From: Acidisarcina polymorpha
Lineage (GTDB): Bacteria; Acidobacteriota; Terriglobia; Terriglobales; Acidobacteriaceae
NCBI RefSeq assembly: GCF_003330725.1
Contig: NZ_CP030840.1
Location: 6,318,116-6,382,115, forward strand
Direction of reading: 5' to 3'
DNA: 64,000 nucleotides
In this document: piece after piece, positions 14,330-20,271 of the stretch
Layout of the letters: each line of letters begins with the position of its first letter
Numbering within the stretch: the first letter of the stretch is position 1
Program-made: the position numbers and the translations under genes
Notes under the pieces: model-generated
The model's input: the letters and a program-made list of their open reading frames with translations, nothing else
Told to the model about the DNA's origin: nothing
Database searches by the model: none

Positions 14330-14662
14330 ATGACGACGGATCCTGGATTCCATTATGAGATTGAGAAGACGCAAGACGACATTAAGGGCAGGATCACCAC
14401 GGTCACCTGTCACGGCAGACTAACCAGTGAGAAAGCCTCGAAGTTCAAGGAAGCGATCAAGCCGATCATCGCCGACGGCGGCAAGATCATCGTCGATTTC
14501 GCGGACGTCAGCTACCTCGATAGCTCTGGCCTAGGCGCCTTAGTCGGCGTGAAGGTCTCGGCTCTCCACAAAGGACTTTGTACCCTTGATTTAATCAACA
14601 TCTCTGATCGAATCAAGGATTTGCTGCGCCTCGCCAATCTCACCAAGTTATTCTCCTCTTGA
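14330..14662 (+). CDS. STAS-domain anti-sigma factor antagonist-like protein
   Basis: The 110-residue protein is a single STAS domain. It contains DVSYLDSSGLGALVGV, the SpoIIAA/RsbV phosphorylation loop with the conserved D-S-S-G in which the second Ser is normally the phosphoacceptor. Such proteins relieve sigma factors from a kinase/anti-sigma partner, or act in signalling scaffolds. No serine-kinase (RsbW-like) gene lies nearby, so the partner is elsewhere. The start ATG follows AAGGAGATCGACCGGAA, an SD-like AAGGAG at 11 nt. It precedes kdpE by 127 bases, which may be coincidence. Confidence 0.87.
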   Translation: MTTDPGFHYEIEKTQDDIKGRITTVTCHGRLTSEKASKFKEAIKPIIADGGKIIVDFADVSYLDSSGLGALVGVKVSALHKGLCTLDLINISDRIKDLLRLANLTKLFSS

Positions 14663-14789: not shown

Positions 14790-15479
14790 ATGGCGGAACG
14801 AATCCTGATTCTTGACGATGAAGCGCAGATAACCCGGGTTTTGCGGGCCGCGCTCTCGGCGCAGGCATACGATGTGAGGATTGCGAACGATCCCGAAGAG
14901 GCCTTGCGGCTCTTCGAAGATTGGGCACCGGACTTGATCATCACGGACTTGATGATGCCAGGAATCAGTGGCATAGAGGTCTGCAGGAGCATCCGAAAGA
15001 AAGCATCGACGCCCATCATCGTTCTTTCTGTTCGCGACCAGGAGCGGTCCAAAGTGGAGGCGCTCGATGCCGGCGCCGACGATTATGTGACCAAGCCATT
15101 TAGCATTCAAGAGCTTCTGGCGCGGGTTCGGGCCCACTTGCGCCGGGCTCCGGAACGCAACTCCGATCAGGCAGTAGAGATTGGAGACTTCAGTGTCAAC
15201 CCTGAAGCGCATACCGTTACGGTTAGCGGGCGGGGCGTTCATCTGACCCCAAAAGAGTTTGATTTGCTGCTGCATTTCGCCCGCAACTCCGGCAAGGTCC
15301 TCACCCATCGGGCTTTGCTGACCGCGGTATGGGGAGCCCAGTCTGCCCATCAGCCCGAATATTTACGGGTCTTCATCGGGCAACTTCGGCGAAAGCTCGA
15401 GAATGGGAGCGGAAAGCAGTATTTCCAAACCGAGCCCTGGGTAGGCTATCGCTTCCTGCCAGATGGTCTTCCCGAGTAG
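14790..15479 (+). CDS. kdpE: OmpR-family response regulator, KdpE-like
   Basis: The 229-residue protein has a receiver domain with acidic pair Asp9/Asp10, phosphoacceptor Asp53 in LIITDLMMPG, Thr/Ser switch position Ser80 and Lys102. A winged-helix DNA-binding domain (LTPKEFDLLLHFARN, HRALLTAVWG, GYRFLP) follows. It lies directly upstream of, and on the same strand as, the kdp uptake genes, so it most likely activates them under K+ limitation. No kdpD gene is adjacent. I chose ATG 14790 (MAERILILDD), where the receiver domain begins; the frame is open 30 bases further upstream. Confidence 0.88.
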   Translation: MAERILILDDEAQITRVLRAALSAQAYDVRIANDPEEALRLFEDWAPDLIITDLMMPGISGIEVCRSIRKKASTPIIVLSVRDQERSKVEALDAGADDYVTKPFSIQELLARVRAHLRRAPERNSDQAVEIGDFSVNPEAHTVTVSGRGVHLTPKEFDLLLHFARNSGKVLTHRALLTAVWGAQSAHQPEYLRVFIGQLRRKLENGSGKQYFQTEPWVGYRFLPDGLPE

Positions 15480-15573
15480 CTTCTGCATCACTTCGTCCCC
15501 AGACTACTTCATCCCTCCAGCACAGCGTGAAGACAGTTCAAGGCCCTCTTCGTTGTCTATCTCAGACGTGTCC

Positions 15574-15590
15574 TTATGACTTCTTTATGA
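15574..15590 (+). promoter_or_regulatory. Candidate KdpE-type direct-repeat site upstream of the kdp genes
   Basis: Two copies of TTATGA begin at 15574 and 15585, exactly 11 bp or about one helical turn apart, in the 207-bp gap between kdpE and the first kdp micro-gene. OmpR-family regulators bind tandem half-sites of this spacing. No defined -10/-35 pair could be assigned, so this is a positional suggestion only. Confidence 0.35.
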
Positions 15591-15686
15591 AGCGCTTACG
15601 GGGAGCTTAGTGCTGCGCCTGTCTACTTGGATAGATGGGCGCTACTCCGGGTAGATAACGGGGATAGCCTTCTGGAGAGAAAAACC

Positions 15687-15773
15687 ATGTGGGACATGCT
15701 TGCTCTCATTTTGACAATCGCTTTTTTTGCGATCGCACTCTGGTACGTGCAGGGTTGCGAGAAGCTGAGGTAA
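15687..15773 (+). CDS. 28-residue single-span membrane microprotein at the head of the kdp operon
   Basis: An open frame starts at ATG 15687 with GGAGAG about 7 nt upstream and encodes 28 residues: a short N-terminus (MWDMLALIL), one hydrophobic span running to about residue 19, and a charged tail GCEKLR. It ends 6 bases before the kdpF ATG. Its size, good ribosome-binding site and tight spacing support translation. It is not KdpF itself, which follows; its function is unknown. The size and position suggest an accessory subunit or stabiliser of the KdpFABC complex. That is inference. Confidence 0.7.
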   Translation: MWDMLALILTIAFFAIALWYVQGCEKLR

Positions 15774-15779
15774 CCGGCC

Positions 15780-15869
15780 ATGGATATCACGACCGCCGTC
15801 GTCGTTGTGCTTACGGTTCTATTACTTGCCTACTTGTTTGCGACCCTTTTGCGGCCGGAGAAATTTTAA
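15780..15869 (+). CDS. kdpF: K+-transporting ATPase KdpF subunit
   Basis: The 29-residue protein has one transmembrane helix (TTAVVVVLTVLLLAYLFATL) followed by LRPEKF, the typical KdpF C-terminus seen in many species. KdpF is a small lipid-like stabiliser of the KdpABC complex. GAGG lies about 9 nt before the ATG, and the TAA stop is separated from the kdpA ATG by a single base, so translation is almost certainly coupled. Confidence 0.88.
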   Translation: MDITTAVVVVLTVLLLAYLFATLLRPEKF

Positions 15870-15870
15870 A

Positions 15871-17601
15871 ATGACTTGGAACGGATGGCTGCAGTTTGCC
15901 GTGTTTTTCGGAGTGGTCCTTGCACTCATGCGTCCGCTTGGTATTTATATCGCCAAGGTGCTTGAAGGGCAGAAGACTTTTCTTGACCCGGTTCTTAGGC
16001 CAATTGAAAAGCTCGTCTACCGCGTCAGCGGGGTGGATGCGAAGGAGGAGATGAACTGGCGGCAGTACTCCGTCGCCATGCTGCTCTTCAGCTTCGTCTC
16101 TTTGTTCCTGACCTACCTCATTGAGCGAGCTCAACACTTTCTACCTTGGAATCCACAAGGATTGCCGGGCGTCACACCAGATCTGGCGTGGAACACTGCC
16201 GCGTCTTTCACGACCAATACAAATTGGCAGTCGTATGTGCCTGAAGCAGTGATGAGCTACTTCACCGAGATGGTCGGGCTTGCCTACCACAACTTCCTCA
16301 GCGCGGCGGTCGGCATCGCGGTTGCCATTGCCCTGGTCAGGGGCATTGCTCGTAAACAGTCCGGGACCATCGGGAACTTCTGGGTCGACTCGACCAGGAC
16401 AATCCTTTGGATCCTGCTGCCGATTTGCCTGGTCGTCTCGCCAATCTTGATCCAACAGGGCGTTCCTCAGAACCTGAAGGCGTATACGGTCGCCACGACG
16501 CTGGAGAAGTCTCCGGCGCCGCAGACCATCGGCCAGGGGCCAGTCGCTTCGCAGGAAGCCATCAAGATGCTGGGCACCAATGGCGGCGGCTTCTTCAACA
16601 CCAACAGCGCGCATCCCTACGAAAATCCAACGCCATTAACCAACTTTATCGAGATGCTGCTGATGTTCCTGATTCCCGCGGCGCTCACGGTGACGCTGGG
16701 CAGACTGACCGGCTCTCCAGGCCATGGATGGGCGGTCTTCGGCACCATGGCTGCACTCTTCGTCATCGGATTTGTCGGAATTTATGCGGCAGAGTCGCAG
16801 GCCCACCCGCTCTTGCACAATGTCTCGCAGCATGCCACGGCGCTGCAATCGGGCGGCAATATGGAGGGCAAGGAGGTGCGCTTCGGCGTCTCTCAGTCGG
16901 CGCTCTTCTCCGCCATCACTACGGATGAAAGCTGCGGCGCGGTCAATGCAATGCACGACTCTTACATGCCACTCGGCGGAATGATCCCGCTGATTAATAT
17001 CATGCTTGGCGAGATCGTCTTCGGCGGGGTCGGCTCCGGGCTCTATGGAGTTCTGATCTATGTGGTGCTCGCGGTCTTTATCGCCGGGCTGATGGTCGGG
17101 CGCACGCCGGAGTATCTCGGCAAGAAGATCGAAGCCTTCGATGTGAAGATGGCGATGCTCTACATCCTCATCTTTCCTCTGCTGATCCTTGTGTTCACAG
17201 CCATTTCCGTCCTGTCCCCCAACATGGGTCTGAGCGCGCTCGCGAACAACGGTCCGCATGGACTCACCGAAATTCTCTATGCGTTTACCTCATCGGCGGG
17301 CAACAATGGATCCGCCTTCGCAGGCGTCAGCGTCAATACTCATTGGTATAACGTCACCCTCGGCATCACCATGCTGGCTGGCCGTTTCCTGATGATGATC
17401 CCGATGCTGGCGATCGCCGGGAATCTGGCCACGAAGAAAAGCGTGCCGCCTTCACCCGGAACATTCCCTGTGAATACGACCCTGTTCTCGGTGCTGCTCG
17501 GCGGCGTAATCGTCATCGTGGGCGCCTTGACTTTCTTTCCGGCGTTGAGCCTTGGCCCAATCCTCGAACACTTGCTGCTCCGGTCCGGGCAGCTGTTCTA
17601 A
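15871..17601 (+). CDS. kdpA: K+-transporting ATPase potassium-binding subunit KdpA
   Basis: The 576-residue polytopic membrane protein is the K+ channel-like subunit of the KdpFABC P-type ATPase. Selectivity-loop regions are visible, including GTNGGGFFNTNSAHPYENPT and CGAVNAMHDSYMPLGG, followed by MIPLINIMLGEIVFGGVGSG. Length agrees with the family (~560-600). The ATG at 15871 (MTWNGWLQFAVFF) is the right start, one base after kdpF; an upstream in-frame start at 15805 would overlap kdpF and is rejected. It is followed by kdpB after 22 bases. Confidence 0.97.
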   Translation: MTWNGWLQFAVFFGVVLALMRPLGIYIAKVLEGQKTFLDPVLRPIEKLVYRVSGVDAKEEMNWRQYSVAMLLFSFVSLFLTYLIERAQHFLPWNPQGLPGVTPDLAWNTAASFTTNTNWQSYVPEAVMSYFTEMVGLAYHNFLSAAVGIAVAIALVRGIARKQSGTIGNFWVDSTRTILWILLPICLVVSPILIQQGVPQNLKAYTVATTLEKSPAPQTIGQGPVASQEAIKMLGTNGGGFFNTNSAHPYENPTPLTNFIEMLLMFLIPAALTVTLGRLTGSPGHGWAVFGTMAALFVIGFVGIYAAESQAHPLLHNVSQHATALQSGGNMEGKEVRFGVSQSALFSAITTDESCGAVNAMHDSYMPLGGMIPLINIMLGEIVFGGVGSGLYGVLIYVVLAVFIAGLMVGRTPEYLGKKIEAFDVKMAMLYILIFPLLILVFTAISVLSPNMGLSALANNGPHGLTEILYAFTSSAGNNGSAFAGVSVNTHWYNVTLGITMLAGRFLMMIPMLAIAGNLATKKSVPPSPGTFPVNTTLFSVLLGGVIVIVGALTFFPALSLGPILEHLLLRSGQLF

Positions 17602-17623: not shown

Positions 17624-19660
17624 ATGGCTACCGAAAAATTAAGCCTTTGGAATCCGGGCATTCTGCGACAGGCGTTCGTGGGCGCGTTCACGAAACTCAA
17701 CCCCCGCCTGATGGTCAAGAATCCCGTCATGTTCGTCGTCGAAGTGGGCAGTGTGCTGACCACCGCGCTCTTCATCCAGGATCTGATACAGCATAAGCCA
17801 GGGATCAGCTTCAATTTGCAGATCACGCTCTGGCTGTGGTTCACAGTATTATTCGCGAACTTCGCCGAGGCTATGGCCGAGGGGCGCGGCAAGGCGCAAG
17901 CCGACACGCTCCGCAAGGCCAAAGGGGAAACAATGGCCTATCGTTTCCGCGCCGACGGCACGATCGAGGCAGTATCGAGTTCCCAGCTCCGCACCGGTGA
18001 CGTGATTGAAGTCAAAGCCGGTCAGTCCATCGCAGGCGATGGCGAAGTGATCGAGGGAGTCGCCTCGGTCGATGAATCAGCGATCACCGGCGAATCGGCT
18101 CCCGTGATTCGCGAGGCTGGCGGTGATCGGTCGGCGGTGACCGGCGGCACGAGAGTGCTCTCCGATTGGGTCAAGATCAAGATCACCTCCAATCCGGGAG
18201 AGACCTTTCTGGACCGCATGATTGCGCTCGTCGAGGGCGCGGAGCGGCAGAAGACGCCGAATGAAATTGCCTTAAGCATTCTGCTTTCCGGACTTACGAT
18301 CGTCTTCCTGCTCGCGGTCGCGACACTGCAGCCCTTCGCGATTTACTCGCATGCGCCGCAGACAGTCTTCGTGCTGGTCTCGCTGCTGGTCTGCCTCATT
18401 CCGACCACAATTGGAGGACTGCTGTCGGCAATCGGGATCGCGGGCATGGACCGGCTGGTGCAATATAACGTCCTGGCGATGTCCGGCCGCGCGGTAGAGG
18501 CAGCTGGGGACGTGAACACGCTGCTGCTCGACAAGACCGGCACCATCACCCTCGGCAATCGCCAAGCGACTGAATTCTTCCCCGCTCCGGAGATCAGTAC
18601 CGAGCGACTCGCGGACGCAGCGCAACTCGCTTCGTTCTCCGATGAAACCCCCGAAGGTCGATCGATCGTCGTGCTCGCGAAAGAGAAGTACAACTTGCGC
18701 GGACGCGACCTGACTGGGATGCACGCCGAGTTCGTGCCTTTTACCGCACAGACCCGCATGTCCGGCATCGATCTGCCCGGAACGAAGATCCGCAAAGGCT
18801 CCGCCGACGCGATTGCAAAGTATCTCGAGTCGCTCGGCTCCTCGATGCCCCGTAAGGTGACCGACAAGGTGGAGGAGATTGCCCGTCTCGGTGGCACTCC
18901 GCTCGTCGTGGTCGAGAACAACACCGCGCTTGGCGTCGTCTACTTGAAAGACATTGTGAAGGGCGGCTTAAAAGACCGGCTGGCGCGGCTGCGCGCGATG
19001 GGCATTCGCACCATCATGATTACCGGCGACAATCCATTGACCGCGGCGGTGATCGCGCGCGAAGCCGGCGTCGACGACTTCCTCGCGGAAGCGAAGCCGA
19101 AAGACAAGATGGATCTGATTAAGCGCGAGCAGGCCAAGGGCAAGCTGGTGGCGATGACCGGCGACGGCACCAACGATGCTCCCGCCCTAGCCCAGGCCGA
19201 CGTCGGAGTCGCGATGAACTCAGGGACTCAAGCCGCGAAAGAAGCGGGCAATATGGTCGACCTCGACTCCAATCCCACCAAGCTGATCGAGATCGTCGAG
19301 ATCGGCAAGCAATTATTGATGACGCGAGGGGCGCTCACAACCTTCTCCATCGCCAACGACGTCGCCAAATATTTCGCCATCATTCCAGCCATGTTCGCCG
19401 GCGTGTTTCCCGTTCTCAATGCACTGAACATCATGCACTTGAAGACGCCGCACTCGGCGATTCTGTCGGCGGTCATCTTCAACGCGTTGATCATCATCGC
19501 GCTGGTGCCGCTCGCGCTCAAAGGTGTTAAGTATGAACCGAAGTCGGCGCAGGCGCTGTTGCAGCGCAATCTCCTGATCTATGGAGTTGGCGGCATCATC
19601 GTGCCGTTTCTCGGGATCAAAGTCATCGACGTCCTTCTGACCACCTTACATCTGGCTTAA
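17624..19660 (+). CDS. kdpB: K+-transporting P-type ATPase catalytic subunit KdpB
   Basis: This 678-residue P-type ATPase hydrolyses ATP to drive K+ uptake with KdpA. It shows the A-domain TGES motif ([10 protein letters not shown]), phosphorylated Asp303 in [11 protein letters not shown], nucleotide-binding KGSADAI, and the hinge motif [18 protein letters not shown]. Membrane helices lie at about 35-70, 215-270 and in three or four helices at the C-terminus. All catalytic motifs are intact and the length is normal. It lies 22 bases after kdpA and 29 before kdpC. Confidence 0.98.
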
Positions 19661-19689: not shown

Positions 19690-20271
19690 ATGTTCGGATC
19701 GTCCTTAAAGATCGCCATTCGCTTTACGCTCTGCACCACACTGTTGCTTGGTCTCGCCTATCCGCTCCTGGTAACCGGCTTCGCTCAACTCGTCTTGAGA
19801 CATCAAGCAAACGGCGGCCTGGTCTCTCGCGACGGTACAGTCATCGGATCGCAGCTGATTGGGCAGAATTTTTCCTCGGAAAAGTACTTCCACAGCCGTC
19901 CCTCCGCTGCCGGGAACGGCTATGACGCCAGCAACTCGAGCGGGTCGAACCTGGCTGCCTCGAGCCAGAAGCTGGTGACGCGGATCCAAGGAGATGTCGC
20001 CAAGGCCAGCACCGACAATCCGTCGCAACCGGTTCCTATCGATCTGGTGACAGCCTCTGCTTCCGGGCTCGATCCGGACATTACACCCGCGGCAGCGAAT
20101 TATCAGATCCACCGTATAGCCCAGGCGAGGAAACTCAGCGACGACGCAGTCGCCAAGCTTGTCAGCACCCATATCACTCCCCGTCAATTCGGATTTCTGG
20201 GAGAGCCCCGCGTCAATGTACTTGAATTGAACCTCGCCTTGGATGAGATGTCCAAGACAACTCAGGAATAG
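19690..20271 (+). CDS. kdpC: K+-transporting ATPase accessory subunit KdpC
   Basis: The 193-residue protein has one N-terminal transmembrane helix (about residues 9-32) and a periplasmic domain with the KdpC signatures GSQLIGQNFSSEKYFHSRPS and SASGLDPDITPAAANYQ. KdpC increases ATP affinity of KdpB and completes the complex. It is the last gene of the run; no kdpD follows, and the next gene is convergent after 16 bases. Confidence 0.96.
   Translation: MFGSSLKIAIRFTLCTTLLLGLAYPLLVTGFAQLVLRHQANGGLVSRDGTVIGSQLIGQNFSSEKYFHSRPSAAGNGYDASNSSGSNLAASSQKLVTRIQGDVAKASTDNPSQPVPIDLVTASASGLDPDITPAAANYQIHRIAQARKLSDDAVAKLVSTHITPRQFGFLGEPRVNVLELNLALDEMSKTTQE

Follow-up and report, generated by a model that had tools for sequence, protein, structure and literature searches.

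The Kdp complex, a potassium pump familiar from textbooks, has been solved structurally many times, and every structure cited here comes from Escherichia coli; KdpF has been described as stabilising the E. coli complex, of which it is a subunit (Gassel 1999, cited in PMC6255902). In Clostridium acetobutylicum the operon has been given the name kdpZYABCXDE (Treuner-Lange et al. 1997, cited in PMC5401905). Following this precedent, we adopt the name KdpZ for the small protein described here. The 1997 paper on C. acetobutylicum reportedly treats Z and Y as hydrophobic peptides, the latter of which we take to be KdpF, and a paper of 2006 is said to report a kdpZFABCN operon in Alicyclobacillus. 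In the openly licensed literature we found no account of how widespread or conserved KdpZ is or of how it depends on KdpF, and neither a structure nor a biochemical study of a fifth Kdp subunit came to light.

Here, we describe a computational analysis of the kdp locus of the acidobacterium Acidisarcina polymorpha, contained in a stretch of 64,000 nucleotides that we refer to as the window, and of the micro-gene that lies in front of its kdpF.

Results

A micro-gene in front of kdpF

The kdp region of the window comprises, in order, the gene of a KdpE-like response regulator, 207 nt of intervening DNA, the micro-gene kdpZ, and kdpF, kdpA, kdpB and kdpC (Table 1). Just 5' of the regulator lies a STAS-domain gene of the anti-sigma factor antagonist type (14330-14662). 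The micro-gene encodes the peptide MWDMLALILTIAFFAIALWYVQGCEKLR and is separated by 6 nt from kdpF, whose product, MDITTAVVVVLTVLLLAYLFATLLRPEKF, matches Potass_KdpF over the cut-off (E 3.3e-8) as well as TIGR02115; a spacer of 1 nt follows before kdpA. A small gene thus precedes a kdpF-like gene and kdpA, as in kdpZYABCXDE. On re-reading, the frame, its GGAGAG site, kdpF and the two spacings given in a first-pass annotation of this DNA proved exact to the base.

Table 1. Features of the kdp region, in window coordinates.
Feature	Position	Strand	Remark
Response regulator, OmpR/PhoB type, KdpE-like	14790..15479	+	KdpE model NF007820, 194 bits, under its cut-off
KdpE-type direct repeat CTTATG-ACTTC-TTTATG, candidate operator	15573..15589	+	two 6-mers 11 bp apart
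GGAGAG, Shine-Dalgarno-like, of micro-gene	15674..15679	+	7 nt 5' of ATG
kdpZ-like micro-gene, 28 aa, single-helix protein	15687..15773	+	ATG frame, 28 codons + TAA
GAGG, candidate kdpF ribosome-binding site	15767..15770	+	within final codons of micro-gene
kdpF, 29 aa	15780..15869	+	Potass_KdpF and TIGR02115 matches
kdpA	15871..17601	+	
kdpB	17624..19660	+	
kdpC	19690..20271	+	

The KdpE-type direct repeat lies 114 nt 5' of the micro-gene. When kdp loci were scored with the KdpE half-site as described in PMC3264566, repeats with a score of at least 10 of 12 were present 5' of kdpZ in 18.8% of loci versus 0.5% in mononucleotide-shuffled sequence. The repeat upstream of the micro-gene, together with its enrichment before kdpZ elsewhere, suggests that the micro-gene is likely the first gene of the kdp operon. 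A consensus search at this locus revealed no sigma-70 promoter, and the region had no Rfam match to a riboswitch or other RNA element. In Caulobacter, a structured 5' UTR of 100 nt is reported upstream of kdpF (PMC8552747).

Conservation and selection

The first 30 kdp loci from Acidobacteriota have a frame of 27-32 amino acids at the same position; in an alignment of 26 of these products M1, D3 and C24 do not vary and F14 hardly does. A profile HMM constructed from the 26 aligned sequences yielded 71 matches at E<0.01 in 297 Acidobacteriota genomes, and 68 of these lie 5' of kdpA and share its strand, the distance being 116-270 nt in most cases. The search of acidobacterial genomes proposed in the first-pass annotation therefore finds the frame conserved in front of the kdp genes. 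The three matches found away from kdpA lie at a contig end (G283), adjoining an orphan kdpF (G318), and, weakly (E 0.006), inside a long frame (G171). In 147 kdp loci drawn from many phyla, the model of the first round matched 139 at E<0.01 and later rounds 142, while the reverse strands of the same upstream regions gave 0 matches at this threshold. Twenty-six of the 147 loci had built the first model, leaving about 113 matches independent of it; the E-values of this comparison are scaled to a limited set of upstream frames, and the search of 297 whole genomes is the more stringent of the two.

Comparisons within genera gave a pN/pS of 0.29-0.46 for the frame of the micro-gene. The two alternative frames reached about 1 to 2, and the 90 nt upstream about 0.8-1.1. 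Stop codons, whose frequent occurrence had been named at the outset, along with a lack of conservation, as speaking against the frame, are confined in this comparison to the control frames and regions. Because pN/pS is low in this frame only, the pattern of substitution identifies the 28-codon frame as a conserved protein-coding gene under purifying selection.

The consensus of the encoded protein is M-x-D-(hydrophobic helix with FF)-Y-V-x-A-C-E-R-L, and D3, F14 and C24 are nearly invariant across phyla. Part of the Pseudomonadota sample belongs to a subfamily that has lost the cysteine, so that the family is better described by the broader signature M-x(0-1)-D, FF, and a terminal acidic/basic-L. 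Of the W-Y-V-x-G-C pattern initially anticipated, the Y-V-x-x-C portion is widespread, but the W and the G are not. Conservation along the protein follows the helical period, marginally (p 0.04). Profile and structure searches found no Pfam, NCBIfam, PHROG or PDB family that covers the 28-aa protein.

Distribution of kdpZ

Among the kdpA loci sampled, kdpZ is present in 25/30 from Pseudomonadota, 26/30 from Chloroflexota, 22/30 from Myxococcota and 8/29 from Verrucomicrobiota, fractions that are estimates because the loci are the best-scoring kdpA copies of each search. Three more Chloroflexota loci carry visibly diverged copies. The gene also occurs in Actinomycetota and Deinococcota plasmids and, within Bacillota, in Bacillus badius and Subdoligranulum, with a weaker form in Niallia and on a Listeria innocua plasmid; Sinorhizobium meliloti has a diverged copy recognised by eye. 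In a L. monocytogenes record, Halobacterium, Lactiplantibacillus, E. coli K-12 and a Klebsiella plasmid, inspection of the region 5' of kdpF gave no convincing kdpZ. As judged by these matches, kdpZ is conserved from Acidobacteriota to Pseudomonadota, Chloroflexota, Myxococcota and Bacillota, and its presence in many phyla disposes of the idea that it is an acidobacterial peculiarity. Verrucomicrobiota and one acidobacterial family, f32, are mostly without kdpZ, which indicates that the gene is dispensable.

Several loci carry other small frames in this region. In the f32 family (L171-L173, L184) a hydrophobic ORF of 58-82 aa, for example MPWFLPLASFAAWLG..., precedes kdpF; it has no Pfam or NCBIfam match and is possibly a replacement for kdpZ. 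In a second acidobacterial family, f13 (L179, L180), kdpZ is diverged and a third small hydrophobic ORF separates it from kdpF; the Acidiphilium plasmid pACRY03 has an additional 46-aa hydrophobic ORF between kdpF and kdpA (L073:539-679). The kdpZ of one Myxococcota locus (L284) is apparently decayed, with motif remnants only.

A tblastn search of plasmids with the window peptide, which is too short and diverged for this purpose, gave no match; a Rhizobium copy, used as query instead, matched 166 plasmid records. Among the 30 Rhizobium-type plasmid records listed, one annotates the place of kdpZ, as a hypothetical protein, the PLSDB gene table being incomplete. The plasmid records for the most part leave the gene unannotated or call it 'potassium ABC transporter ATPase'. 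The first-pass description of the gene as unnamed is thus correct in that it is mostly unannotated and has no family model, but not in the strict sense, as kdpZ stands in an operon name and RefSeq has the ATPase designation.

Association of kdpZ with kdpF

The 285 distinct kdpA loci examined fall into those with both kdpZ and kdpF (225), those with kdpF only (39) and those with neither (21), and kdpZ alone was found in 0; kdpZ is thus genetically linked to, and co-occurs with, the pump genes. The association of kdpZ with kdpF has a Fisher p of 2e-16, a value uncorrected for ancestry, and 16 of the 21 loci with neither gene are from Verrucomicrobiota. Second copies of kdpA that are without kdpF have no kdpZ either. 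The distance from the kdpZ stop to the kdpF start is mostly -4 to +18 nt and extends up to about 300 nt. One acidobacterial genome, G318, has an orphan kdpZ-kdpF pair without kdpA (L165, G318:C2 about 658.3 kb), and the same genome has a kdpA copy without kdpZ and kdpF (L178, G318:C1:155648). Covariation between KdpZ and KdpF exceeds a within-group permutation null, which keeps relatedness, and has no helix register. Co-occurrence with kdpF, the short spacing and the orphan pair together suggest that KdpZ works with KdpF, and hence with the pump.

Discussion

The micro-gene tracks kdpF and kdpA, and a small protein associated with the pump is therefore the best reading of KdpZ. To this extent the original proposal of a second small subunit or regulator holds, although sequence cannot choose between the two. 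Since E. coli has no kdpZ and the gene was not once seen without kdpF, its product is probably a small pump part that has been overlooked. On balance we favour a role for KdpZ as a further accessory subunit with a single helix, which would act together with KdpF in a KdpZFABC complex. According to the positive-inside rule, KdpZ would span the membrane once, with its acidic N-terminus (D3) outside and its C-E-R-L-R end inside. A putative conserved face formed by D3, T10, F13/F14, Y20/V21 and C24 could then pack on KdpF, on the membrane part of KdpA/KdpB, or on both, and KdpZ would stabilise the complex or tune its activity, as KdpF reportedly does in E. coli. E. coli and its relatives are among the lineages that would manage without it; that the E. 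coli complex functions without KdpZ is also a counterpoint to the subunit reading.

More tentatively, and with doubt slightly outweighing our confidence, we propose that the widespread form of the pump could be a five-part KdpZFABC, with an ancient fifth subunit lost in the E. coli lineage, so that the model structures would represent a reduced pump. If this is true, purification, structural and regulatory studies outside E. coli have overlooked one part, and if most other bacteria with Kdp carry the extra subunit, a family model will have to be added to annotation pipelines. KdpZ also offers a small and clear experiment on a second single-helix peptide in a P-type ATPase complex.

The main rival, though an unlikely one, is that KdpZ is instead a regulator on the sensing side, binding KdpD or a short soluble KdpN-like form and linking it to the pump in the manner of MgrB and PhoQ. 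Such a short form bears a serine kinase domain that inhibits KdpB. In Acidobacteriota kdpZ is present in 56/59 cases with a short KdpD (open frame <600 aa) versus 9/36 with a long KdpD, but the difference runs along family lines, with ancestry as a confounder. The N-terminal domain of KdpD phosphorylates Ser162 of KdpB (PMC11018627), and KdpF and KdpD interact in a two-hybrid assay (PMC3618439). Overproduction of KdpF, however, does not importantly alter kdp regulation, and kdpZ goes with kdpF and kdpA. Furthermore, in Pseudomonadota and part of Chloroflexota kdpZ occurs alongside a full-length KdpD of about 900 aa; these loci argue that kdpZ does not depend on short KdpD, and those of Pseudomonadota rule out, as a general rule, a KdpZ that anchors a soluble short KdpD. 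In the genome of the window a distance of about 650 kb separates KdpD from the kdp operon. The only KdpD match of this genome (L164, G000:C1 about 5670 kb, outside the window) is a 388-aa protein with KdpD and Usp domains in which the kinase domain is absent; a separate 461-aa histidine kinase follows it, and the KdpE-like regulator instead adjoins the kdp operon.

We regard as rather improbable an assembly or insertion chaperone that would guide KdpF and KdpA into the membrane and would not be retained in the mature pump. The probable place of kdpZ at the head of the operon, where it would be made ahead of kdpF and kdpA, and its occurrence only with KdpF are consistent with such a role; nothing specific stands on the other side, and a chaperone and a stoichiometric subunit look alike at the level of sequence. 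There is very little likelihood that the frame is a leader peptide, the translation of which would control access to the kdpF start by coupling or attenuation while the product itself is unimportant: a candidate kdpF ribosome-binding site does lie inside the end of the frame, and 4-nt overlaps of kdpZ and kdpF occur in many loci, but the amino acids are kept across phyla with synonymous sites free to change, unlike those of a leader peptide, an Rfam element is absent, and the gap to kdpF can be wide. Finally, a diverged KdpF duplicate with the same job is scarcely credible, for although the two proteins are equal in size and place and both end in acidic-basic-L/F (CERL, PEKF), profile comparison with hhalign gave a probability of 0.1 to 2 percent and no meaningful alignment, which rejects identity as a KdpF paralogue, and the KdpF profiles (Potass_KdpF, TIGR02115) matched neither the 28-aa protein nor 25 relatives.

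KdpZ shares with KdpF (PF09604, TIGR02115; E. coli KdpFABC) a length of about 29 aa, one hydrophobic helix, and a place in the kdp operon in adjacent genes. In contrast, the conserved residues of the two proteins differ and profile similarity is absent, KdpZ ending in Y-V-x-A-C-E-R-L and not in the Y-L-x-Y-A-L-L-R-P-E-K/R-F of KdpF, and E. coli has KdpF only. The 'potassium ABC transporter ATPase' WP_212667346.1 of Mycetohabitans (Burkholderiaceae) occupies the same place before kdpF and matches the profile; its name is misleading, as the protein is no ATPase. Like the gene in the window, orfZ (kdpZ) of C. acetobutylicum is the first of two small genes 5' of kdpA, and by its position the micro-gene is likely orthologous to it, because other Bacillota have a profile-matching kdpZ at that place. 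By analogy, KdpZ may be set beside CydX, AcrZ, MgrB and proteins of the TorE/NapE type, which are likewise small single-helix modulators of larger membrane complexes.
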